This document shows, one piece after another, positions 898 to 12,035 of a stretch of 12,342 nucleotides of DNA; position 1 is the stretch's first letter; each line of letters starts with the position of its first letter. The notes beneath the pieces are model-generated. The model was not told the DNA's origin. It did no database searches and saw only the letters and a list, made by a program, of their open reading frames with translations. Location: positions 1 to 12,342 of the forward strand of contig DUWJ01000448.1 in NCBI GenBank assembly GCA_012842765.1, in the 5' to 3' direction. The position numbers were made by a program, and so were the translations under genes. The stretch comes from Bacillota bacterium (GTDB lineage: Bacteria > Bacillota > DTU025).

Positions 898-1644
898 TCA
901 GTACCCCACCCGCTCCGTTTCTGCAAGGGCCTTTCTGTTGAACTCCCCCGCTCCAGGAAGATGGTTGCTCTTCCACACCTGGGGCGTCAAGCCCCGTTTG
1001 AGCATCCTATCGATGATTTCTGCCTCGAGCGTCCACATCAAGCAGGCCGCTGCAATGCCCGATGTCGGAATCGCCTTGGTGTCAAGGCCCTCTACTTCAA
1101 GGATGGCATCTCCTATGACGCCGCAGTTGTCGAGGACGATGTCTGCTGCTTCAAACAAGTGTTTGCCGGACGGATGCTGCGCCTCGAGCGACGACGAATA
1201 GGCTACGGATGTAAGCGCAATAACCTTTATGCCCCTCTCCCTTGCAAGAAGCGCCAGGCCTACGGGGAGCGCGTTCTTCCCGGATACAGACCCTATGATA
1301 AGGACATCGCCAGGATAGATATCGCTTCTGTCGAGGATGAATTCCGGTAACCCGGGTATCTCGTCGAGATAGACCATTTCCTTGGTCTTACCAGGCCTTG
1401 CGGGGCCGGGGTTGTCCACTTCCATCTTGATGTTAACAGGTCTCGGCATCATCAGCCCGCCCGCCCGGCCAAACAACTCGTTCATAAGCATGTGGCCCGT
1501 GTCCAAGACGTGAACAGCTCCACCCTGACTCACGGAGTCTACAATAGCGTCTGCAGCTTCAGCAATGCTTTCTGACTGTGTCTTCTCAATCCTGTCTATC
1601 AGCTTTCGCAGTTCATCAAGGTACTTCGCGCCCAAACCGAGCAT
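898..1644 (-). CDS. SIS-domain protein, UPF0309-like (divergent paralogue)
   Basis: A 248-residue sugar isomerase (SIS) domain protein, last gene of the minus-strand cluster. SIS domains bind phosphosugars in isomerases, in MurNAc-6-phosphate etherase and in regulators. Seen: an N-terminal helical stretch, DTGHMLMNELFGRAGG at about 48-63, the glycine/serine motif SVSGKNALPVGLA at about 119-131, and a C-terminal SN-LPG-GEFN segment. It aligns along its whole length with the gene just upstream, so the two are tandem paralogues, but here GHSH has become GHML and SNSG has become SVSG, and the stretch after RAGG differs strongly. The frame is open back to TTG 1707 (269 aa), but ATG 1644 is preferred: GGGAGGA lies 9 nt upstream and the protein then begins where the paralogue begins. 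It is probably cytoplasmic. The substrate is unknown; a deaminase, isomerase, lyase or regulatory role is each possible. Confidence 0.85.
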   Translation of the reverse strand: MLGLGAKYLDELRKLIDRIEKTQSESIAEAADAIVDSVSQGGAVHVLDTGHMLMNELFGRAGGLMMPRPVNIKMEVDNPGPARPGKTKEMVYLDEIPGLPEFILDRSDIYPGDVLIIGSVSGKNALPVGLALLARERGIKVIALTSVAYSSSLEAQHPSGKHLFEAADIVLDNCGVIGDAILEVEGLDTKAIPTSGIAAACLMWTLEAEIIDRMLKRGLTPQVWKSNHLPGAGEFNRKALAETERVGY

Positions 1645-1653
1645 TCCAATCAG

Positions 1654-1660
1654 TCCTCCC
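1654..1660 (-). promoter_or_regulatory. Shine-Dalgarno site of the distal SIS gene
   Basis: GGGAGGA on the minus strand, 9 nt before ATG 1644. It supports the inner start over TTG 1707, which has only a weaker GGAAGG-like stretch before it. Confidence 0.6.
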
Positions 1661-1728
1661 AACCTTTGGTCAATGAAGGGCTTCGCAGCCCAGTAACCAG
1701 CGTCCAACAGTGGCTAGCCTTCCGCCTA

Positions 1729-2457
1729 TCAAAACGATTTGATCTTGGATCTATACTGTTTAAGCAATACCTCGTTATGTTCCAATCCGCCTGGTACGTT
1801 AGAGCTCATGAAGATAGGCGGGTCGATTCCGCGTTCCACGAGTCTCTCGATGACCCGCACTACAACAGTGTTGAGTATCGCCGCCCCTATCACCGTCGAA
1901 ACAGGTCCGGTCTTCTGCGAAACCCCTTCCACCTCTATAGCCGCATCGCCCCATGGCACGTGCGTATCGATTACGATGTCGGCGATCTCATAAAGTCGCT
2001 TGCCAACGCTGTTTCTGACCGGAGTGGTCCGAGAACCCTCGACAGACGTCAAGCCTATCACCTTTACGCCGTCGGACTTGGCCTCGGCCGCCATTTCCAC
2101 CGGCACAGGGTTTACTCCGGAATTGGATGCAACGATCATGACGTCTCCGCTGCCTACTCCTGCATCATCAAGTATGATCCTGGCAAGCCCTGTAAGCCGC
2201 TCCATGTGGGAGCTCTTGCCGGCGCCGAAAGTAACCATGAGCGCGGGCTCGACGATGGCGTTCACAGGCACAAGTCCCCCTGCCCTGTAAAACAGCTCCT
2301 CTCCGAGCATGTGAGAATGGCCGGCCGCGAAATAATGGAGCACCCGCCCATCTGCAATAGCTTCCGCGATGAGCGTGGCTGCCTCCTCCATATTCTCAGC
2401 CTCAGCCCGCTCAACCTCGTCCAGCAAAGATCGGACGACGTCAAAATACTCGAACAC
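1729..2457 (-). CDS. SIS-domain protein, UPF0309-like
   Basis: A 242-residue SIS-domain protein resembling the UPF0309 family of Bacillota. Seen: AAGHSHMLGEELFYRAGGL at 44-62, a family hallmark; IVEPALMV followed by GAGKSSHMERLTGLA at 68-92; SNSGVNPVPVEMA at 111-123, the phosphosugar-binding loop; SVGKRLYEIADIVIDTHVP at 150-168; and SSNVPGGLEHN near the C-terminus. No signal peptide, so cytoplasmic. The start is GTG 2457, with AGGGGGT about 8 nt upstream inside the end of the PHP gene, 12 bp from that gene's stop, which points to coupled translation. Known: SIS domains handle phosphorylated sugars, often amino sugars. Inference: it acts on a phosphosugar derived from the cluster's imported substrate. 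It keeps the canonical motifs that the downstream copy has lost, so this copy is the better enzyme candidate. Confidence 0.9.
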   Translation of the reverse strand: MFEYFDVVRSLLDEVERAEAENMEEAATLIAEAIADGRVLHYFAAGHSHMLGEELFYRAGGLVPVNAIVEPALMVTFGAGKSSHMERLTGLARIILDDAGVGSGDVMIVASNSGVNPVPVEMAAEAKSDGVKVIGLTSVEGSRTTPVRNSVGKRLYEIADIVIDTHVPWGDAAIEVEGVSQKTGPVSTVIGAAILNTVVVRVIERLVERGIDPPIFMSSNVPGGLEHNEVLLKQYRSKIKSF

Positions 2458-2469
2458 CTAGACTACCCC

Positions 2470-3303
2470 CTAACGGACTGGGCGCGCACCGACTCTTGTC
2501 TGAGGAAGCGGACACCACAGATTGTGCCGTCCACCGCCGACAGACTGAAGAGTATCATATGCCCACGCCACTTCGCCGACTCTTTCAACATTATGGGCAT
2601 CGCTGCCCACAGAGAACTTTATCCCCATCTTCAGCCCCAACTCGACCATATCGATCCTGGGGGTGCAAGTCGCACAATGCAGCTCGATTGCCGTCTTGTT
2701 GGCTAGGGCCGCCCTGAAGACGTCTTCATACCACTCGCGCGAGAAGAACCTGGCATCGATCTCGCGCTCCATCTGCCGCCTCTCCTCAAAGGTGGACCCG
2801 GGAAGCAACATCTGCCCCATGGGCAGGTAGCCTGCCATGTGTCCTATTACGTCCACTTCGGGATCTGAAGCTACCCTCAGCACCTCATCCATGTAGGCGC
2901 GCCAGTATCTCTCATCGTAGAGCCTTCCACGCTCAACGGGGATCTTTGATGTAACATAGTGCACGCTTCCGATCACGAAATCGGGCTGCATCGGCAGGGA
3001 TGCGGTTCCCACCGGAATGGGCCCCCGCTCAATCCCGATGAAGACCTCGATATCATCCTCCCCGGCAAGCCCGTCTCTCCACTTGAGCTGCTCCGCCAGG
3101 CTTTTGTCATCGAACACATTTCCTGATTGGGCCCCGTATTTCGCCGCGAAAGGGTCATAGTGATCAGTTATGGCCACCATAGAAAGCCCCTTCGCCTTAG
3201 CCTGCTTCAACACTTCATCCGCTGTAGGCTGCCCATCAGACGCATTCGTGTGAATATGCATATCAACAGGGCCGCTTCCCTCGCGGCGTTCTCCGGCATT
3301 CAA
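2470..3303 (-). CDS. PHP-domain phosphoesterase (histidinol-phosphatase type)
   Basis: A 277-residue PHP-superfamily protein; these are metal-dependent phosphoesterases with a distorted barrel, including histidinol-phosphate phosphatase and nucleotide or sugar phosphatases. Metal-site motifs appear in the expected order: MHIHTNASDG (H16, H18), ITDHYD (D47, H48), IGIER (E92), GSVHY (H115), VIGHMAGYL (H155), AIELHC (208-209) and SVGSDAHN (D235, H237). All key residues seem intact. The start is TTG 3303, with AGGAGGA 9 nt upstream inside the last codons of the preceding gene; the gap between the two genes is only 3 bp. An ATG at 3261 is in frame just before the HIH motif but lacks a good binding site. 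No histidine genes are nearby, so a sugar-phosphate or other phosphoester substrate within this cluster is more likely than histidinol phosphate. That substrate is inferred. Confidence 0.88.
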   Translation of the reverse strand: MNAGERREGSGPVDMHIHTNASDGQPTADEVLKQAKAKGLSMVAITDHYDPFAAKYGAQSGNVFDDKSLAEQLKWRDGLAGEDDIEVFIGIERGPIPVGTASLPMQPDFVIGSVHYVTSKIPVERGRLYDERYWRAYMDEVLRVASDPEVDVIGHMAGYLPMGQMLLPGSTFEERRQMEREIDARFFSREWYEDVFRAALANKTAIELHCATCTPRIDMVELGLKMGIKFSVGSDAHNVERVGEVAWAYDTLQSVGGGRHNLWCPLPQTRVGARPVR

Positions 3304-3306
3304 AGC

Positions 3307-5679
3307 CTATCGTCCTCCTATGACCATCTCTTTGGGAAGCACTGCAATAAACGAAAGCCTCGACTCGGGGACCTCCAGAGTGACTCCTCCCCTATCATCG
3401 ATGACAACCTCCAGGTCGGATCGCACACCTCCGAGCTCGTACTGGATTGCATGGCGCCTGCTTCCCGAAATCGCGCCCCCTCCGCACCCGTCTTCCACCC
3501 AGACACGCTTCCCCTTCAACCTCTGCGGGTTAGACATGAGGATAAGGACTCCTCCCCCGGCCAGAGTCCAGCGACTGGCAGTGACCGATATAAGATCACT
3601 AAATGGCAAGCACGTCCAATCGCAGCTATGCCCAAAACTGCCTTCCAGACCCTCGGAACCGTCCTCGTCATCCCACCAAATCCTCGGCGCCGGATCTGGC
3701 GCAGTGTCGCATTCGCCGATAAAGGCCAGCCCCAAGTCGTCCCTATAAGTACCACGAGCAATGTAGGGGGCAGCCTGTTGTCGCAGGCGCAGCGCCTCCA
3801 GAGCTTCTTCGCGCAATTCTTCGTTTCCGGGCCCGAAACGGTCTCCAAGCTCCATCCAGAATACCGACCCAAGCACGAATGCCCGGGCCAAGTCCCGGAA
3901 GAACCAGGCATAACGAAGGTCGCGGTCGTCGATTCGTCTGGGATTTACCATGTTTACCTGGATAAACTCAGGGAACGTGTACTTGTACATGTTGAAGAAC
4001 TCATCGTATTCCTCGCCATTCCAGGTCAGGTTTGCATATAGGTACTGGCTATAAACATCGCCGCAATTCTCAATCATCAGAAAGGATGATGGATCTATCA
4101 GGCGGCATCTCTCCTTGATCCTTTCTATCATCTTCACGTACCCGTGGTTATAGAGGCCATGATGCGGCCGTTCCCCGCGATTCCCCACCTTCACGTGCTC
4201 GTGGCCCGAATCGTAGCATGGCAACGGAGTAGCCGACCCCAGTTGATCGAGGTAGATGCCTCTTGCCCCGAAGGCGTCGACCATCCACGATGCAGTGTCG
4301 ACCGCCCAATCCTGCCAGTCGCCACAGCCGGGACAAAGGACTGCAAATGTCCGAGGCCCATACATCTCATGGGTGATCTCGCCGCTCAATCCCTTTGCGG
4401 CCCACGCTCTTCCCAGGGAATCGAAGAACTTGGACTCAGTATCGAAAAGGCGAACGTTGATGTAGAAGGTGGTGAATCCACCCTCGCTCCTCACGTGCCT
4501 GCAGCCCTCTCTCAGCTGCCACGAACTGCCCAGCTCCATGTCGGGGATGAACTCCGGATAATCGGTGTCAAACCCCTGCCTGTTCCAGCCGGATATGAGA
4601 AAATGGTTGATATGCTCACGGTGAGCAGTCCCATACATCTCCGGAATGTCAACAAATCTGTTCCTCACGGTCTGGCCGTTCTTGAAATCGTAGCGTGGAC
4701 AGATTGCCGACTCGCGCGCCAAGTCGTCGGGGACACGAGTCACAGTCAAATGCTCCTCAGCCCATGATCTGTATTGCTCAGAAGCCCAGTGCCAATCGCC
4801 TGAATGAACCCCAAGAACGTATGGGTGCGAGCTCCACACCTCTCCCGGCCCAATGGGCACGTATTTTCTGAACCCAAATCCACACCAGGGATCATCTGGC
4901 CCCCCGGTCTCGCTCCTGATCCCGGTCAGTATGAAGTCACTGTCGTATGAGGCCATGTATAGTCCGCCCGAACCATTCCGATCGTAACAATCCATCCACA
5001 TCATTGACGCAAGTCCACAGTAGTTGATCTCTCGGGAATAAGTCCCGTCGGGCTCAATACGGCTCTCTGCTCGCCAAAACTTCATATATCTATCGGATGC
5101 AAGCCGACTTGCCGGGTTCTCAATCTTCTCGCCAGCATGGTGCGGGAAAATGAGGATGCTGTCCTCCGGTGCTACGCCTACCTGGATTCCGCGGACATAC
5201 GGAAAGAGAACCTCTATGACCTCGTAATCTTGTGAGCGGTTATCAACGGACAATGCCCACTTCGAAATCTCCGGATTCTCTTCATCCAGTTCAACGCTCC
5301 ACGAACACGCAATCTCGATCTCGTCTTCGCCTCTACCGCACCCGAGGAGACCCGACACGTCATCCTCCTCGCCACCAGATCCAATACACGGCGTTATGGC
5401 CTCACCGCTGGCCACCACCGTTCGATGCTCCACGTTCAAGGCCAACTTGCCCACACCGTTAAACTTTGTTGCAGTGGCAATTGACGCGGGCCCTGGAGCA
5501 AATACACGCCTGTGCCCTTGCAAATCGCGGCATACGATCCGAAGGGGAGCGCCGTGCACGGCCTCAGGCCACTTCACCAACTCGTCACGAGATACGATAT
5601 TGAATATGCTTCTGACTTCTCCGGTCTTTCCATCTACTTCAATGCGGATTCTGCTGTTTTGCATCTGGGGCATGCACAT
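3307..5679 (-). CDS. DUF6259-like putative glycoside hydrolase (TIM-barrel type)
   Basis: A 790-residue protein without signal peptide or membrane segment, so probably cytoplasmic. Residues about 1-320 look beta-rich, like the N-terminal sandwich of large glycosidases. About 325-640 looks like a TIM barrel: GWNRQGFDTDYPEFIPD (364-380), TTFYINVRLFD (403-413), GIYLDQLGSATP (474-485), a histidine-rich loop, then FLMIENCGD (533-541) and TWNGEEYDEF. The C-terminal 150 residues are again beta-rich. The pattern fits DUF6259-type proteins, related to glycoside hydrolases of the GH36/GH101 fold. D478 in the IYLDQ motif and E537 in the IENCGD motif are my candidates for catalytic nucleophile and acid/base; this is inference. 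ATG 5679 has GAGGA 9 nt upstream; ATGs at 5673 and 5664 are alternatives. Its place behind an ABC sugar importer supports hydrolysis of an imported glycoside. The substrate is unknown. Confidence 0.75.
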   Translation of the reverse strand: MCMPQMQNSRIRIEVDGKTGEVRSIFNIVSRDELVKWPEAVHGAPLRIVCRDLQGHRRVFAPGPASIATATKFNGVGKLALNVEHRTVVASGEAITPCIGSGGEEDDVSGLLGCGRGEDEIEIACSWSVELDEENPEISKWALSVDNRSQDYEVIEVLFPYVRGIQVGVAPEDSILIFPHHAGEKIENPASRLASDRYMKFWRAESRIEPDGTYSREINYCGLASMMWMDCYDRNGSGGLYMASYDSDFILTGIRSETGGPDDPWCGFGFRKYVPIGPGEVWSSHPYVLGVHSGDWHWASEQYRSWAEEHLTVTRVPDDLARESAICPRYDFKNGQTVRNRFVDIPEMYGTAHREHINHFLISGWNRQGFDTDYPEFIPDMELGSSWQLREGCRHVRSEGGFTTFYINVRLFDTESKFFDSLGRAWAAKGLSGEITHEMYGPRTFAVLCPGCGDWQDWAVDTASWMVDAFGARGIYLDQLGSATPLPCYDSGHEHVKVGNRGERPHHGLYNHGYVKMIERIKERCRLIDPSSFLMIENCGDVYSQYLYANLTWNGEEYDEFFNMYKYTFPEFIQVNMVNPRRIDDRDLRYAWFFRDLARAFVLGSVFWMELGDRFGPGNEELREEALEALRLRQQAAPYIARGTYRDDLGLAFIGECDTAPDPAPRIWWDDEDGSEGLEGSFGHSCDWTCLPFSDLISVTASRWTLAGGGVLILMSNPQRLKGKRVWVEDGCGGGAISGSRRHAIQYELGGVRSDLEVVIDDRGGVTLEVPESRLSFIAVLPKEMVIGGR

Positions 5680-5782: not shown

Positions 5783-8596
5783 TTAAAGCTGGAAAAGTGC
5801 ATCCAATGCGTCTGTCACAAATGATCTCACATCATCTGAAAGCATTTCAGGCGCGAAAATATCACAGCCTACATAAATCACGCGCCCCGACAACACCACA
5901 GCGGAGTTGTATTCATCAGCATGGCTAGGACTGCCATCGTCATCTGCCCATGTGCCCAATTCGCAAGTGCCTGGAAGGCGCCTTACTATGATCGCGCGAG
6001 AATCGGCAACCTCTATTGGCGACTCGAGTACGCCTCCGTCACTTGTCGGCATGATGATGCTGTGCAAGGGAGCAACCCCCTGCCACCCTACGAACGAAAC
6101 GCCAAACAGATCAGCGAGGTAGAAACCGTGGGCGCCAGACGCCTTCTCATCTACAGATTTAAGAGAGGTCTGTCCGGTTGCCAGCACTCTTCCACCTGCC
6201 GCCACAAAATCCCGAACTGCCTGCAACTGGGCGTCCGACATCCGCCTCGCATTGGACAGTATGAGTGTCGTGGGGCGCACTTGCGCCACCTGCCAAAGGA
6301 CTTCGATGTTGTCCTCAGCAACCTCGACACACTCGTATCCCGCCTCTTCTACCACGTCGAATATGGCGTTTATGTGGTCCTGCCAATCCCATCGCATGTC
6401 TTCATACCACTCTTCATTTGCCCGGCCCGTAAAAACCGTAACCAGCGGAGTCCGAGCCGCATCCGTCATATCGTTCTGCCCGGACCAGTCGGCACTGGGC
6501 ACTTCTATGGTGGCAATGTATGGCAGATGATCGGATGCGAGGGTCTGCGGAACTCTGGCCGCTCCCGGTTCATCCACTATGCCGATGTCAAAGGAAGTAA
6601 ATATGTAGTCGATGCGCCGCGCGGGGCTATAAGCGTCGTATGTATATCCTCCCTTTAGGTAATCCCTGGCGAACAGTCCCTCCTTGACCAGCTCATCGCT
6701 GTTCACAAGGACCCTGTACGTAGGCATAGTGTCGTTGAACTCGTGCAACGCCAAAGATATTTCATCTGCGTAGGGAGACGCGTTGAAATCTCCCATTATC
6801 ACGCTCGGCCCCACCGCTTTGGACGCGATGTCAAGCAAGGCGCCAACCTGCGCACGACGGCCCGTCTCATCCTTCACATCCAGGTGCGTGACGAAAACGT
6901 TGAGAATTGTTCCGTCCACATCGACCTGAGCTTCAAGGACCGCCCTAGGCTCGTTCCCTGCCGGGTTAGGAAGCTGGTGATTGCACCATGAACGGATAGG
7001 GTAACGTGAGATTAGCGCGTTGCCGAACTGTCCACCGCCATAATAGATGGTGCGGCCGTACACGTGCTCGTATCCGAGCCTTGAGGCGATGTATGCGGCT
7101 TGGTCTACCCCGCCCGATCTTCCCGTTTTGCAGTCGACCTCGCACATGCCTGCGATATCAACCTTCTGCTCCGAAATGAGGTCAGCAATTCTATCGAGGT
7201 CGAGCACGAGATCTGCTCCAAACCCACTATGTATGTTGTATGTCATAACATTGACTCGGTGTGCGGGTTTCACTTCAAGCCTTGGGCGCTCACGAAGGCC
7301 GACCGATGCACGCGATTGTTCTTCGACGCAAGAGACGGCACCGTTAGTCCCATCTTCTTCTATGGGCGCTTCTTTTTCGGTGGCCCCGGCTAGTCCCTCT
7401 TCCACCGTGTACACCTCTCCCAAGTTGACCTGCATGGCCATGGCCATTAGCTTCGCCACATCAGTATTGTCAGACGCAGATGCAAACAGTTCAGAACACT
7501 TGCCCTGCGCAAACAGAAATACTGGTTCCGTGGTGTGCCCATCGGTGCTGAACTGTATCTCTCCGCTGGAGACATCGACTCCCCCTGTTTCATGGTCGGC
7601 CGTCACTATGACCAGGGTGTCGTCGCGTCCAGACGCATACTCCAGCCCAACTGAGACCGCCTTGTCGAAAGCCAGCATCTCGCTGATGAGCATCTCGGCA
7701 TCATTGTTGTGGCAGGCATGGTCTATCCTGCCTCCCTCTATCATGAGGAAGAACCCTTCACCTTCTGTTGATGAAAGGAGTTCTATGGCCTTGGCAGTCA
7801 TCTCGGCAAGACTGGGCTGCTCATCAGGATTTCTCTGAACGTCGTAATCCATATGGGTCATGGAAAACAGCCCTAAAAGCGGAACCGACGATGCGTTGAG
7901 GAAATCCTCCTTGTTCTGGACTACGGTATATCCCTTGCTGCGCGCCACCTCTATGGGCGGAGGAGTCTTTTCAAAGAGCGTCGGCAAAAAGTAAGAGGCT
8001 CCTCCCCCGACTATCAGATCTAGACCGGTCTCCAACATTGCCGCAGCTATCTCACGCCCGCTTCCGCGATCGGCAACATGGACCGAAAACCCCGCAGGAG
8101 TTGCGTCCGTTATCGAACAGGTGCTGACCAATCCGGTGTATCGCCCACTCTCCTTGGCAGCTTCCACTATGTTGGGCACTGGCGTTCCATCAGGGAGCAC
8201 GCCGAGCGACCGATTGACCGTCTTGTGCCCGGTGGCAAGAGCGGTCGAACTCGCGGCTGAGTCAGTAAGGTTGTCTCCCCACGAGTTTGTAGTTATCCTT
8301 GTCATCACGGGCATAAAATCCATAGACAACATGAACGGACTCACATCGCGGGCAGCCTCGATCTGCCCAGGTCCCATCCCGTCTCCGATGAACAATATGA
8401 CGTTGCGTGCGGCCACGTTCTCCCCGGCAGAACATGAGCCGGGGCAGAGCCATGTAAGCACTCCGGCATTCGCCCCGTGGTCAGCGGGTCCGAATGCCAT
8501 TATCATCAGGCAGAGGACCAGCGCAGCCACGACCGTTGCCGACCTTACAGGTCGCCGCCCTTGCGGGCGCACTCTGCCTGCAAAAACCCGGATCAT
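5783..8596 (-). CDS. Exported three-domain fusion: alkaline phosphatase + EEP nuclease/phosphatase + GATase-like domain
   Basis: A 937-residue protein (numbering from ATG 8596). Residues 1-44 are a signal peptide: an arginine-rich start, a hydrophobic core (about 19-35), then a GANA cleavage-type site. Residues about 64-390 are an alkaline phosphatase: FIGDGMG (metal D72), TDSAASSTALATGHKT (nucleophile S113), MIEGGRIDHACHNND (E287, D292, H296), TADHETGG (D334, H335) and DGHTTE (H354). After a glutamate-rich linker (about 395-440), residues 445-699 are an endonuclease/exonuclease/phosphatase domain: MTYNIHSG (N454), GMCEVD (E486), FVTHLD (H571), IMGDFN (D603, N605) and SDH (D689, H690). Residues about 716-937 resemble the GATase-like middle domain of GH42 beta-galactosidases (LILSNARRMSD, FVAAGGRVLATGQTSL, YLADLFGV). 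All hydrolase motifs look intact. The start is chosen because AGGGGGG lies 8 nt upstream and a clean signal peptide follows; a 973-aa form from ATG 8704 is possible. It probably releases phosphate from external phosphoesters. Confidence 0.9.
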   Translation of the reverse strand: MIRVFAGRVRPQGRRPVRSATVVAALVLCLMIMAFGPADHGANAGVLTWLCPGSCSAGENVAARNVILFIGDGMGPGQIEAARDVSPFMLSMDFMPVMTRITTNSWGDNLTDSAASSTALATGHKTVNRSLGVLPDGTPVPNIVEAAKESGRYTGLVSTCSITDATPAGFSVHVADRGSGREIAAAMLETGLDLIVGGGASYFLPTLFEKTPPPIEVARSKGYTVVQNKEDFLNASSVPLLGLFSMTHMDYDVQRNPDEQPSLAEMTAKAIELLSSTEGEGFFLMIEGGRIDHACHNNDAEMLISEMLAFDKAVSVGLEYASGRDDTLVIVTADHETGGVDVSSGEIQFSTDGHTTEPVFLFAQGKCSELFASASDNTDVAKLMAMAMQVNLGEVYTVEEGLAGATEKEAPIEEDGTNGAVSCVEEQSRASVGLRERPRLEVKPAHRVNVMTYNIHSGFGADLVLDLDRIADLISEQKVDIAGMCEVDCKTGRSGGVDQAAYIASRLGYEHVYGRTIYYGGGQFGNALISRYPIRSWCNHQLPNPAGNEPRAVLEAQVDVDGTILNVFVTHLDVKDETGRRAQVGALLDIASKAVGPSVIMGDFNASPYADEISLALHEFNDTMPTYRVLVNSDELVKEGLFARDYLKGGYTYDAYSPARRIDYIFTSFDIGIVDEPGAARVPQTLASDHLPYIATIEVPSADWSGQNDMTDAARTPLVTVFTGRANEEWYEDMRWDWQDHINAIFDVVEEAGYECVEVAEDNIEVLWQVAQVRPTTLILSNARRMSDAQLQAVRDFVAAGGRVLATGQTSLKSVDEKASGAHGFYLADLFGVSFVGWQGVAPLHSIIMPTSDGGVLESPIEVADSRAIIVRRLPGTCELGTWADDDGSPSHADEYNSAVVLSGRVIYVGCDIFAPEMLSDDVRSFVTDALDALFQL

Positions 8597-8721
8597 TAGT
8601 AATACCCCCCTCATCATAGCGTCATGCGATGTTCGGGCAAGGCGCCAACCGGGGCCGTTGCGAGTTGGCCCTGGAAGAACGTACCGGGCGCCCTGCTTTC
8701 TCATAACCTGAAACTCGCCTT
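8597..8721 (-). other. 125-bp leader before the fusion gene
   Basis: Spacer between the second permease and the preferred start of the fusion gene. It is open in the same frame back to ATG 8704, but the 36 residues that would be added do not resemble a signal peptide or a phosphatase N-terminus. It contains overlapping GC-rich inverted repeats, such as GGGCC-N10-GGCCC, on the minus strand. No promoter with recognisable -35 and -10 boxes was found. Confidence 0.35.
8605..8612 (-). promoter_or_regulatory. Shine-Dalgarno site selecting ATG 8596
   Basis: GAGGGGGG on the minus strand, 8 nt before ATG 8596. The outer ATG 8704 has only a weak GAG/CAGG-like region before it. Confidence 0.6.
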
Positions 8722-9624
8722 CTAGCCCTTCATTCCTGTTATCGTTATGCCCTCCACGAAGTAGCGTTGCGTGAACAGGAAAAGGATCAACACAGGCGCA
8801 ATTGCCATGAGTGACGCCGCATTGATCAAGTTCTGATAACTGAAGTACTGCCCCGAAAAATAGGGGATCGCCAGCGGCAACGTACGCAGTTTATCCGAGT
8901 TCACGCATATGAGCGGCCATATATAGGCCCCCCAATGCCCCGTAAACGTGAAAAGGGTCTGAGTAGCCAAAGCAGGCTTTACTAGCGGAATCACGATCTG
9001 GTTGAAGATTCGAAACTCGCTGGCGCCGTCGATGCGCGCAGCATCGAGAAGCTCGTCAGGTATTGTCATCATGAACTGTCTCATCATGAATATCCCCGAC
9101 GCACTCGAAAGACCCACTATGATCAGACCCGCGTATGTGTTTACCAGCCCGGCTTTGGCCATCATCACGTAAAGCGGCACTATCGTGGCTGGAAAAGGAA
9201 CCATCATGGTAGCGAGTATGACCCAGAACAACACGTCCCTTCCGGCAAACTTGTACTTCGCGAACCCGAAGCCCGCCATGGAACAGGTTATCACCGTGAC
9301 AACCGTGGGTATCACCGACGTGATGATGCTGTTCATGTAGTAACGGGCAAACGGTATCCTCTCGAAAACCTCTCGGAAATTCGACAAAGTAGGGTTCTTC
9401 GGAAAGAACGTCGGAGGAAAGAGCGATATCTCCTCCAAAGTCTTAAAGGACGACAATATGAGCCACACAAAGGGCAGAGCCATCATGATGGCGCCCAAGG
9501 TCACGACGATATACGCGAGCACTTTTCCGATAATCTTCCCCCACTTCGATGCCTTTGCCGGGCCTTGATTCTTCTGGTTACGCAAGGCGGAATCGAGGGT
9601 GCTGCTGTTGACATTTGCGCTCAT
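8722..9624 (-). CDS. Carbohydrate ABC transporter permease, MalG type
   Basis: A 300-residue inner-membrane permease of the MalG/UgpE type (CUT1 sugar importers). About six hydrophobic segments are seen, near 31-58, 97-120, 131-155, 164-184, 221-240 and 268-286. The EAA loop that docks the ATPase is at 194-217 (LDAARIDGASEFRIFNQ, then IPLVKP). The typical ending, with RYFVEGITITGMKG as the last residues, is intact. The start is placed at ATG 9624: AGGAGGT lies 9 nt upstream, and this ATG overlaps the stop of the preceding permease as ATGA, a classic sign of coupled translation and of equal amounts of the two subunits. A longer frame from 9657 adds 11 residues that lack support. It forms the membrane channel together with the permease encoded just upstream. 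The transported sugar cannot be read from the sequence. Confidence 0.95.
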   Translation of the reverse strand: MSANVNSSTLDSALRNQKNQGPAKASKWGKIIGKVLAYIVVTLGAIMMALPFVWLILSSFKTLEEISLFPPTFFPKNPTLSNFREVFERIPFARYYMNSIITSVIPTVVTVITCSMAGFGFAKYKFAGRDVLFWVILATMMVPFPATIVPLYVMMAKAGLVNTYAGLIIVGLSSASGIFMMRQFMMTIPDELLDAARIDGASEFRIFNQIVIPLVKPALATQTLFTFTGHWGAYIWPLICVNSDKLRTLPLAIPYFSGQYFSYQNLINAASLMAIAPVLILFLFTQRYFVEGITITGMKG

Positions 9625-10553
9625 TCGTACGTGACCTCCTTTCCAAGAAACTTCCACTGTATCAGCGTGATTACGAGGATTATTCCGAACAGAACAAACG
9701 ACATCGCCGCCGCAAGTCCGAATTGAAGGTCACCAAAAGCCCTCTTGAATATGTACGACACAACAACTTGCGTCGCATCAAGCGGGCCGCCTCCGGTCAG
9801 CACGTTCACAAGTCCGAACACCTGGAACGAACTGATTACGCTTGTGACCAAGATATACAGGGTAGTGGGCTTGAGCAACGGAAGCGTGATGTATCTGAAA
9901 GCGTCCCAATTCCCTGCCCCGTCTATCTCTGCTGCCTCGTAGTAACTCCGAGGTATGCCCTGCAAGGCCGCGAGGTACACAACCATGCGATACCCGATTC
10001 CCGACCATATGGCGACGAGAATCACCGAGAACATCGCCCAGGCCGGATCGCCCAACCAATCCTGGGGCGCCAGCCCGATAAACTTGACTATCTGGTTGAA
10101 TATGCCGAGATTGGGATGGTATATCCAAGTCCAGATAACCGCCGCAATCGATAGCGGAGTAATCACAGGCAGATAGTACAGAAGCCTGAAAAACTTTTTC
10201 CCCTTAATCCCGGTGTTTAACAGGAGCGCAACAAGCAGCGCCAGGATCATCTGCAAGGGAACCACGCCTATCGAATATGTAAGCGTGTTCTTCATGGCCG
10301 TCCAAAACAGCGGGTCTGCAAAGAGTTTGCGGTAATTGGCAAGACCCACCCAAGGCTGTGTCGGACGGATAATGTTCCAATTGTGGAAACTCATCCAGAA
10401 CCCCGTTATCATCGGCACAATCGTGACCATGAGGTAAAACACTACCCCAGGCAGTATGAAGATATACGGGGCGCTGGCCTTTTGAAAGCGATACCACTTG
10501 TACTTGCGCTCATTGCCGTTTCGTGGTGGAATTGTTGTCGCCTCTGCGCTCAC
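9621..10553 (-). CDS. Carbohydrate ABC transporter permease, MalF/UgpA type
   Basis: A 310-residue inner-membrane permease, partner of the MalG-type protein. Seen: a basic cytoplasmic start, a first membrane segment near 30-54, WVGLANYRKLFADP (68-81), a motif typical of UgpA/MalF-type permeases, further hydrophobic segments near 90-113, 125-145, 172-196, 230-250 and 278-300, and the EAA loop at 206-228 (EAAEIDGAGNWDAFRYITLP). TGGGPLDAT near 253-261 is also a family hallmark. The GTG start at 10553 has AGGAGG about 10 nt upstream; an out-of-frame ATG lies between them. The stop overlaps the next gene by ATGA. No ATP-binding subunit is encoded in the window, so a shared MsmX/UgpC-type ATPase is presumably supplied from elsewhere. 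Confidence 0.95.
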   Translation of the reverse strand: MSAEATTIPPRNGNERKYKWYRFQKASAPYIFILPGVVFYLMVTIVPMITGFWMSFHNWNIIRPTQPWVGLANYRKLFADPLFWTAMKNTLTYSIGVVPLQMILALLVALLLNTGIKGKKFFRLLYYLPVITPLSIAAVIWTWIYHPNLGIFNQIVKFIGLAPQDWLGDPAWAMFSVILVAIWSGIGYRMVVYLAALQGIPRSYYEAAEIDGAGNWDAFRYITLPLLKPTTLYILVTSVISSFQVFGLVNVLTGGGPLDATQVVVSYIFKRAFGDLQFGLAAAMSFVLFGIILVITLIQWKFLGKEVTYE

Positions 10554-10766: not shown

Positions 10767-12035
10767 CTATGGCTTTGCCAGTTCCTGTTGCTCCTTTTCA
10801 GCCTTTATGCCCTCTTGCGTTAGCCACTTCAGGGCAGCTGCAGGACTCTCGCCCTTCAGCGTCACCATCTGATAGGCCTTCCTTACCAGCTCATCATCGA
10901 GACTCCTGGTAGTCCATGGCGCGGGCACTGATTTCTTCATCGATTCCATACAAGGAGCCAACAGCTTGTCGCTCTTGTATTCCGGCAGGTCGAGCAGAGC
11001 TCTCCTCGAAGGCAGCTCGCCAGTGGTCAACGTCCAACGTTTCTGCGCATCTGCCGAAGTCAGGTATGCCACCCACTTGGAGCAGATTTCCGACTCCGCC
11101 TTGCTTGACACCACATAAGCCCACGAAGTGAGCAGCGTGGAGCGGGATCCGCCAGCCTTCGGTGCAGGGACCTCAGCCACCAAAAAGTCAAGATTGGGCG
11201 CCGTGGTCCTGAAACTGCCTATCATGGCTGGGTGTCCGAACACCATTCCCAACTTGTCCTGTCGGAACGCATTGTATCTCTGGCCAAACTGGGGATCCTC
11301 AACTTTGTACGTAGTCACCATGTCCGTCGCAAACTTCAGCGCTTCTATGGCTTGTGGAGAGTTGAAATCGGGGAGCTGCGTCTTGTTATCCCAAAGCGGA
11401 GCTCCATTTTGAATCATGAGAGAGACCAACACGGGGCCATATCCGCCTGTAGCAACGCCCATTTGCGTTGTAACGCCCTTGACATCCCGCTTGTGAATTG
11501 CCTGCGCATACTTTATCAACTCGTCCCATGTCTGCGGAGGTCTTGCGGGGTCAAGCCCAGCTTCTTTGAAGAGCTTCGGGTTGTAGAACAAGACTATCGT
11601 CTGCGTGTCAACGGGAAAACCGTAGTATTTCCCATCATACTTAAGCCTCTTGATTGCCGGCGCGATAAAATCGTTCTCAATCTGCCGGGCGGTGGCCACT
11701 CTCGGGTCAATCTGCTGAATGACGCCTGAGGCGGCATACGCTGGCACCTGGCCTGTGGGAATCTGGAACGTGTCGGGACCTGATCCTGCGGCAAGCGCCG
11801 GAAGAAGCTTCTGGAAGTAGTCGCTTTCAGGTACCGATTCGATCTCTATCTTGACGTTAGGGTTCTGCTTCATGAACTCCTCTGCGAAGGTCTGGACCAG
11901 TTCGAGCCGCGCAGGAGAGTGATGCTGCCAGTGCACGATCGTGACCTTCTTCTGCGCCGCTACGTTGCAGGAGAGTCCTACGAGAAGCACGACTGCGAGC
12001 AACAACGCACCGTACCTGCTCATGTTTTTGGTCAT
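10767..12035 (-). CDS. Extracellular solute-binding protein, family 1 (sugar ABC importer)
   Basis: A 422-residue exported binding protein of the SBP_bac_1 (MalE/UgpB-like) type. Residues 1-27 form a signal peptide: K/R near the start, a hydrophobic core LLLAVVLLVGL, and a probable cut after NVAA. A cysteine at 23 lies in GLSC, a poor match to a lipobox, so lipid anchoring is uncertain. Seen: IVHWQHHSPARLELVQTF (33-50), EEFMKQNPNVKIE (52-64), GSGPDTFQI (84-92), and the hallmark DGKYYGFPVDTQTIVLFYNP (134-153) followed by LFKEAGLDPARPPQTWDEL. The ATG start has TAGGAGG 8 nt upstream. It captures the sugar outside the membrane and delivers it to the two permeases encoded next. A 213-bp gap with strong hairpins follows, consistent with separate control of its mRNA level. 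The ligand is unknown. Confidence 0.95.
   Translation of the reverse strand: MTKNMSRYGALLLAVVLLVGLSCNVAAQKKVTIVHWQHHSPARLELVQTFAEEFMKQNPNVKIEIESVPESDYFQKLLPALAAGSGPDTFQIPTGQVPAYAASGVIQQIDPRVATARQIENDFIAPAIKRLKYDGKYYGFPVDTQTIVLFYNPKLFKEAGLDPARPPQTWDELIKYAQAIHKRDVKGVTTQMGVATGGYGPVLVSLMIQNGAPLWDNKTQLPDFNSPQAIEALKFATDMVTTYKVEDPQFGQRYNAFRQDKLGMVFGHPAMIGSFRTTAPNLDFLVAEVPAPKAGGSRSTLLTSWAYVVSSKAESEICSKWVAYLTSADAQKRWTLTTGELPSRRALLDLPEYKSDKLLAPCMESMKKSVPAPWTTRSLDDELVRKAYQMVTLKGESPAAALKWLTQEGIKAEKEQQELAKP

Follow-up and report, generated by a model that had tools for sequence, protein, structure and literature searches.

The window analysed here is a stretch of 12,342 nucleotides and makes up a whole contig of a 2.19-Mb draft genome of a Bacillota bacterium (G000:C420; 482 contigs, 87% complete). 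The minus strand carries a head-to-tail run of eight genes that encode, in order, the sugar-binding protein (SBP) and two permeases of an ABC importer, a fused protein, a DUF6259 protein, a PHP-domain protein, and two SIS-domain proteins (SIS1 and SIS2) (Table 1). Neighboring genes of this operon are separated by 3 to 213 bases, except that the two permease genes overlap by 37 bases. Permease 2 is followed after 125 bases by the fused gene, and the DUF6259 gene begins 103 bases downstream of the fused gene. A scan for promoters and terminators gave no usable signal. On the opposite strand, a partial DegV-family gene occupies positions 2 to 562, and the same neighbor is found at the same end in genome G004 (locus L001).

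Table 1. Coordinates of genes and protein regions in the window
Feature	Coordinates	Strand	Remark
ABC importer sugar-binding protein (SBP)	10767..12035	-	PF01547 E 2.2e-43
ABC importer permease 1, UgpA-like, below NCBIfam cut-off	9621..10553	-	
ABC importer permease 2, GlcU/UgpE-like, below NCBIfam cut-offs	8722..9657	-	Directly upstream of fused gene
Fused gene, 937 aa: export-type N terminus + ALP + EEP + GH42-middle-like CTD	5783..8596	-	
Hydrophobic export-type N terminus, about residues 1-46	8459..8596	-	End set by eye
Alkaline phosphatase (ALP) domain, about residues 56-395	7412..8431	-	
EEP phosphodiesterase-type domain, about residues 446-702	6491..7261	-	PF03372 E 1.4e-21, PF23226 E 1.1e-17
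C-terminal domain (CTD), GATase-like, GH42-middle type, about residues 714-937	5786..6457	-	
DUF6259 protein	3307..5679	-	PF19773 E 6.2e-34
PHP-domain phosphoesterase-type protein	2470..3303	-	PF02811 E 3.4e-12; histidinol phosphatase 2yxo E 3.3e-8
SIS-domain phosphosugar protein 1 (SIS1)	1729..2457	-	PF13580 E 1.4e-45; PRK02947 311 bits, cut-off 135
SIS-domain phosphosugar protein 2 (SIS2)	898..1707	-	PF13580 E 9.1e-29; PRK02947 222 bits, cut-off 135

The fused frame runs without interruption, and the window contains no N bases; an alternative ATG at position 8704 would give a product of 973 amino acids. The N terminus is of the hydrophobic export type, with the top 15-residue Kyte-Doolittle mean of 2.84 starting at residue 22. 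These features agree with the preliminary description, which had proposed a single exported protein with the domain order ALP-EEP-CTD; the domain search of the window recovered this order, and at least 14 other full-length proteins share it. When we compared the window gene with those of G003 and G004, dN was 0.10 to 0.16 in the ALP, EEP, and CTD regions (with dS of 1.3 to 1.8, near saturation) and 0.64 to 0.69 in the N terminus and the ALP-EEP linker. This pattern indicates that all three domains are under selection and that the linker is much freer. The predicted structure of the full-length protein had a low pTM (0.43), and the packing of the domains is not fixed by this model.

The ALP domain scored 260.3 bits against PF00245, above the gathering cut-off of 24.4, and 168.2 bits against the PhoA equivalog NF007810, below the NCBIfam cut-off of 540. 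We take the catalytic residues to be those of PhoA, with Ser113 as the nucleophile. The window protein is identical at 11 of 12 PhoA positions, including the equivalents of the nucleophile Ser, the metal ligands, and Arg166. The exception is K328, which is His. Ten PhoA positions are kept in all 18 fused rows (P0005 and G384 being one protein), and K328 varies among them. A further departure from PhoA is seen in some fused relatives, where the M3-site Asp153 is A, G, or S (seven rows: P0009, P0010, P0012, P0013, P0014, P0015, and G002). Compared with other PF00245 members (E. coli PhoA and TAB5 AP), the window ALP of ∼340 residues differs in being fused to the EEP domain and the CTD. The alignment thus bears out the complete ALP motifs claimed in the preliminary description, and this domain is a predicted phosphomonoesterase with a complete catalytic site. 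The window's genome has two more ALP paralogues that are 39 to 40% identical and fall outside the fused clade, one near two ABC permeases (L033 7751-9025) and one near an SBP-like gene (L034 116-1747).

The EEP domain scored 77.7 bits against PF03372 (cut-off 24.5) and 64.5 bits against PF23226 (cut-off 27). When aligned to E. coli ExoIII, it is identical at seven of eight positions; the eighth, Tyr109, is Phe and is adjacent to a THL motif. The catalytic N, E, D, N, D, D-H set is kept in every row that covers it, and Tyr109 is Phe in the fused proteins. All seven catalytic positions aligned to ExoIII are therefore kept, as the EEP motifs had suggested, and the domain is a predicted phosphodiesterase with a complete catalytic site. 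Neither active site of the fused protein lacks a required residue on alignment. The window EEP domain shares the N, E, D-N, D, D-H set with the EEP superfamily (PF03372/PF23226; ExoIII, DNase I, and the PGAP2IP C-terminal domain) but is found in an export-type protein, between an ALP and the CTD. In PGAP2IP/Cwh43-type proteins, the EEP domain is accompanied by an N-terminal membrane domain with multiple spans. Pfam detected no such domain on the fused chain, although PF23226 scored above its cut-off. A second EEP gene in G004 (L032 1961-2887, 308 aa) has a hydrophobic N terminus without an ALP or a CTD and branches at the base of the EEP-CTD clade.

The predicted fold of the CTD corresponds to the GATase-like middle domain of GH42/GH164 enzymes, with ∼15% identity to the GH42 middle domain. 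This prediction upholds the earlier assignment of the third domain to the GH42 GATase-like type, without a sequence profile above cut-off: DUF4350 scored 24.3 bits, below its cut-off of 30.4, and the Pfam scan of the fused chain gave no PF08532 match at E 0.001. Active class I glutamine amidotransferases have a conserved nucleophile Cys. Across 21 aligned proteins, the CTD has no invariant or nearly invariant Cys, and it is probably a noncatalytic binding or assembly domain. Unlike the middle (GATase-like trimerization) domain of GH42 beta-galactosidases, the CTD is not accompanied by a GH42 barrel on the fused chain, and in G311, a domain of this type is a gene of its own. A protein search with the CTD alone returned three matches, all close to the CTDs of the ALP-EEP-CTD family (P0121 matches the end of P0003). 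CTD-like domains were also seen joined to a GHL10 glycosidase-like domain in one protein (L035 8760-10697) and as a separate gene adjoining a GHL10 gene (L064 8247-9002); this company hints at a glycan role for the CTD.

We searched about 5.8 billion proteins, scored 7995 candidates, and considered the best 120 of 220 matches. The matches listed include at least 14 other full-length three-part proteins (P0002-P0010, P0012-P0015, and P0018; 40 to 74% identity). P0011 is a fragment of a three-part protein, P0016 and P0017 are apparently pieces of fused genes, and six proteins (P0019-P0024) are EEP-CTD proteins with their own hydrophobic N terminus and no ALP. The fused gene is also present in genomes G002, G003, G004, G059, and G384; the protein and genome sets overlap (P0002 lies in the G004 locus, P0003 lies in the G003 locus, and P0005 is G384). 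In G210, the gene appears as two frames, but the bases at the break are unread, and this locus has no bearing on the join either way. The recurrence of the same join in these five genomes and in the other full-length proteins excludes an assembly error. The fused protein is a real and conserved product, made of ordinary parts in an unusual assembly. A literature search for an ALP-EEP fusion, judged from its result listings, found no paper describing one. A likeness is seen with ALP-GDPD fusions (P0074 and P0101, named Arthrobacter, and P0091), in which an ALP is likewise fused to a phosphodiesterase; theirs is a GDPD rather than an EEP domain, and their Pfam lists contain no GH42-like domain. 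Joining of a phosphodiesterase to an ALP has thus occurred with other parts too.

The same three domains also occur as separate genes. In the one-contig genome G311, the ALP (397 aa), the EEP protein (294 aa), and the CTD are three adjacent genes in this order after permease 2, each protein has a hydrophobic N terminus, and the ALP and EEP genes overlap by 4 bases (the CTD start is a GTG that we picked). PHP and SIS1 lie downstream of the CTD gene, and a NagK-like kinase, SIS2, and DUF6259 lie upstream of SBP. In G006 and G007, a lone ALP occupies the operon slot, and an EEP-CTD gene is found on a different contig, surrounded by other kinds of genes. The preliminary description had treated separately encoded homologues and an assembly error as the findings that would undo it: the former do exist, in G311, G006, and G007, but the latter is contradicted by the other genomes with the join.

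In a rerun ALP tree, the stand-alone ALPs of G001, G005, G006, and G007 nest inside the fused set, and a single clade of the 17 fused rows was rejected (p-AU 2.6e-8, with G210 counted as fused and P0018 left out). The nesting of G001 and G005 has starred support, and G006 and G007 are placed less firmly. The trees were built without P0011, P0017, P0005, P0025, and six short wrong-frame ORFs, and the second ALP tree was additionally built without the long rows G009, G311, P0018, P0029, and P0032. This nesting suggests that the join is probably old and was later partly undone, so that one old fusion followed by splitting or loss is the simplest history; several separate fusions may instead have taken place. 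Since G311 and P0018 are long-branched, either a three-gene or a one-gene state may have come first.

The importer is a steady partner of these genes. At 9 of 10 loci with an ALP and the importer, the ALP gene, lone or fused, comes next after the orthologous permease (G000, G002, G003, G004, G006, G007, G059, G210, and G311; the G003 contig has permease 2 only). The tenth locus, in G384, is rearranged, with the fused gene after a partial permease 2 and a full importer ∼10 kb away; an ALP N-terminal fragment follows this full importer (L057 18388-18810). Within the class, EEP-CTD is found in 6 of 12 genomes (G000, G002, G003, G004, G006, and G007), and the SBP orthologue is found in the same six. 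G001 and G005 (the latter 84% complete) have the ALP only, without EEP-CTD or the SBP orthologue. Across the phylum, 45 of 398 genomes have some EEP-CTD match at 1e-20, and 10 encode an EEP domain and a CTD either in the same gene or in directly neighboring genes (E of 1.3e-48 or better for the EEP part); all 10 are among the 11 genomes with an SBP orthologue at E 1e-90. Only the best three (EEP-CTD) or four (SBP) candidates per genome were scored in these counts, which may overcount absences, and the genomes with the set come from just four families, which means that the co-occurrences are not independent observations. In the eleventh genome, G267, an EEP gene whose product has a hydrophobic N terminus lies 77 bases before SBP, and a CTD-like gene adjoins a GHL10 gene on another contig. 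These results show that the ALP-EEP-CTD set travels with one CUT1-type sugar importer and give substance to the sugar-importer link drawn in the preliminary description.

The rest of the operon is less tightly bound to the fused gene. A set of DUF6259, SIS, and NagK-like kinase genes occurs with other importers (25 to 42% identical) in G005, G008, G059 (on another contig), G097, G186, and G344, and the fused enzyme and its importer therefore look like a module docked on a wider pathway. We take the DUF6259 protein to be glycosidase-like; a search of PDB sequences gave no match at E 0.01, and a literature search for DUF6259 found no paper with the term. Two solved relatives were found for SIS1; one of them, SCO4393, suggested that SIS1 might be a NagS (GlcNAc-6P dehydratase). 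According to PMC12680351, one of four homologues assayed was active, that of Streptacidiphilus, and those of Clostridium and Paenibacillus were inactive, which weakened this candidate. MocA-type oxidoreductase genes lie ahead of the importer in G059, G210, and G384 (two each) and in G004 (one, where the contig starts), and regulators near the relatives are of the GntR/UTRA or ROK type. These neighbors might point to an inositol or an amino-sugar substrate: their best profiles, all far below the cut-offs, were IolG or UDP-GlcNAc 3-dehydrogenase for MocA, NagK for the kinase, and NagC for the ROK regulator, and their PDB matches were just as mixed.

From these domains and neighbors, we infer a chemistry, a type of substrate, and a role for the CTD. 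In the reading that we favor, with confidence a little above even, the fused protein would be an exported two-step phosphodiesterase-phosphomonoesterase that frees a sugar for the adjacent importer. The EEP domain would cleave an extracellular phosphodiester, the phosphomonoester left over would be hydrolyzed by the ALP domain, and the ABC importer would take up the neutral sugar or glycoside set free. Inside the cell, the DUF6259, SIS phosphosugar, and PHP proteins would process the import, joined in some relatives by the NagK-like kinase or MocA oxidoreductases. Fusion would hold the intermediate close to the cell and to the second catalytic site. With the ALP acting outside, the importer should meet a product already free of phosphate, as suits a CUT1 importer, and the neighborhood is best read as serving to release such a dephosphorylated sugar for uptake. 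Against it, the EEP-CTD gene lies away from the importer in G006 and G007, no permease relative was found within 20 kb around the G267 SBP, and the window operon has no obvious sugar kinase. Further phosphoesterase genes within about 5 kb of SBP speak for this reading, but as they accompany fused and split forms alike, the EEP domain need not be the sole phosphodiesterase. They are PF01663 genes in G006 and G007, with BLAST relatives in G002, G059, and G384, and a metallophosphoesterase gene in G002, with a relative adjoining the fused gene in G384. We considered the PF01663 phosphodiesterase as a stand-in for the departed EEP in G006 and G007 and dropped this idea because its relatives are also near the fused genes. 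Two long proteins beside the operon are 48% identical to each other (L024 1787-4828, in G002, and L057 1917-5687); the G002 protein has PD40 propeller repeats and a calcineurin-like phosphoesterase domain.

ALPs are classic Pi-scavenging enzymes, and together with the further phosphoesterase genes nearby, this could mean that under phosphate starvation, the fused protein frees Pi from a mixture of organic phosphodiesters, the sugar-importer link being secondary. We consider general scavenging unlikely: the nine window proteins scanned include no Pst or PhoB/PhoR protein, the partner conserved in all four families is a CUT1-type SBP, and the nearby regulators are GntR/UTRA or ROK types. Salvage of nucleic acids or nucleotides, with the EEP domain as a nuclease and the ALP yielding nucleosides, is more doubtful still. 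The EEP fold includes DNase I and ExoIII, and seven of eight ExoIII positions are identical, but Tyr109 is Phe next to the THL motif, and nucleoside importer and catabolism genes are absent from the nine window proteins scanned; the three solved relatives found (4ruw, 3g6s, and 3teb) are named at the family level only and are neutral on this point. Similarly improbable is a joining of domains with unrelated substrates for co-export only, with no two-step chemistry, which would suit the separate genes of G311, the unlinked genes of G006 and G007, and the lone ALPs of G001 and G005 but not the constancy of order and operon slot with and without fusion or the presence of EEP-CTD with SBP even where unlinked.

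Within the favored two-step release of an importable sugar, a more specific proposal is tentative. The locus may serve phosphoglycoside utilization, a hitherto unrecognized pathway in several Bacillota families. In this proposal, the fused exoenzyme would reduce a sugar or amino sugar in phosphodiester linkage (in an inositol-phosphoglycan, a sugar-1-phosphate polymer, or teichoic-type material) to a neutral glycoside that would be imported and reprocessed by the DUF6259/SIS/NagK-like set, with the glycan bound by the CTD. These three export-type domains, encoded by three, two, or one gene with the ALP in the same slot, form a natural experiment; a shared substrate is predicted across these states, and the coupling is testable. 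The substrate, if found, would point to a function for DUF6259 and for the accompanying importer clade and would add a route for bacterial use of phosphodiester-linked sugars.

The window's genome carries a second copy of the importer (G000:C21, L084 2-5441), in which SBP is 82% and the permeases are 91% and 84% identical to those in the window. Two MocA-type oxidoreductase genes lie ahead of this copy. Its contig ends 79 bases past permease 2, and a second ALP gene could follow there.
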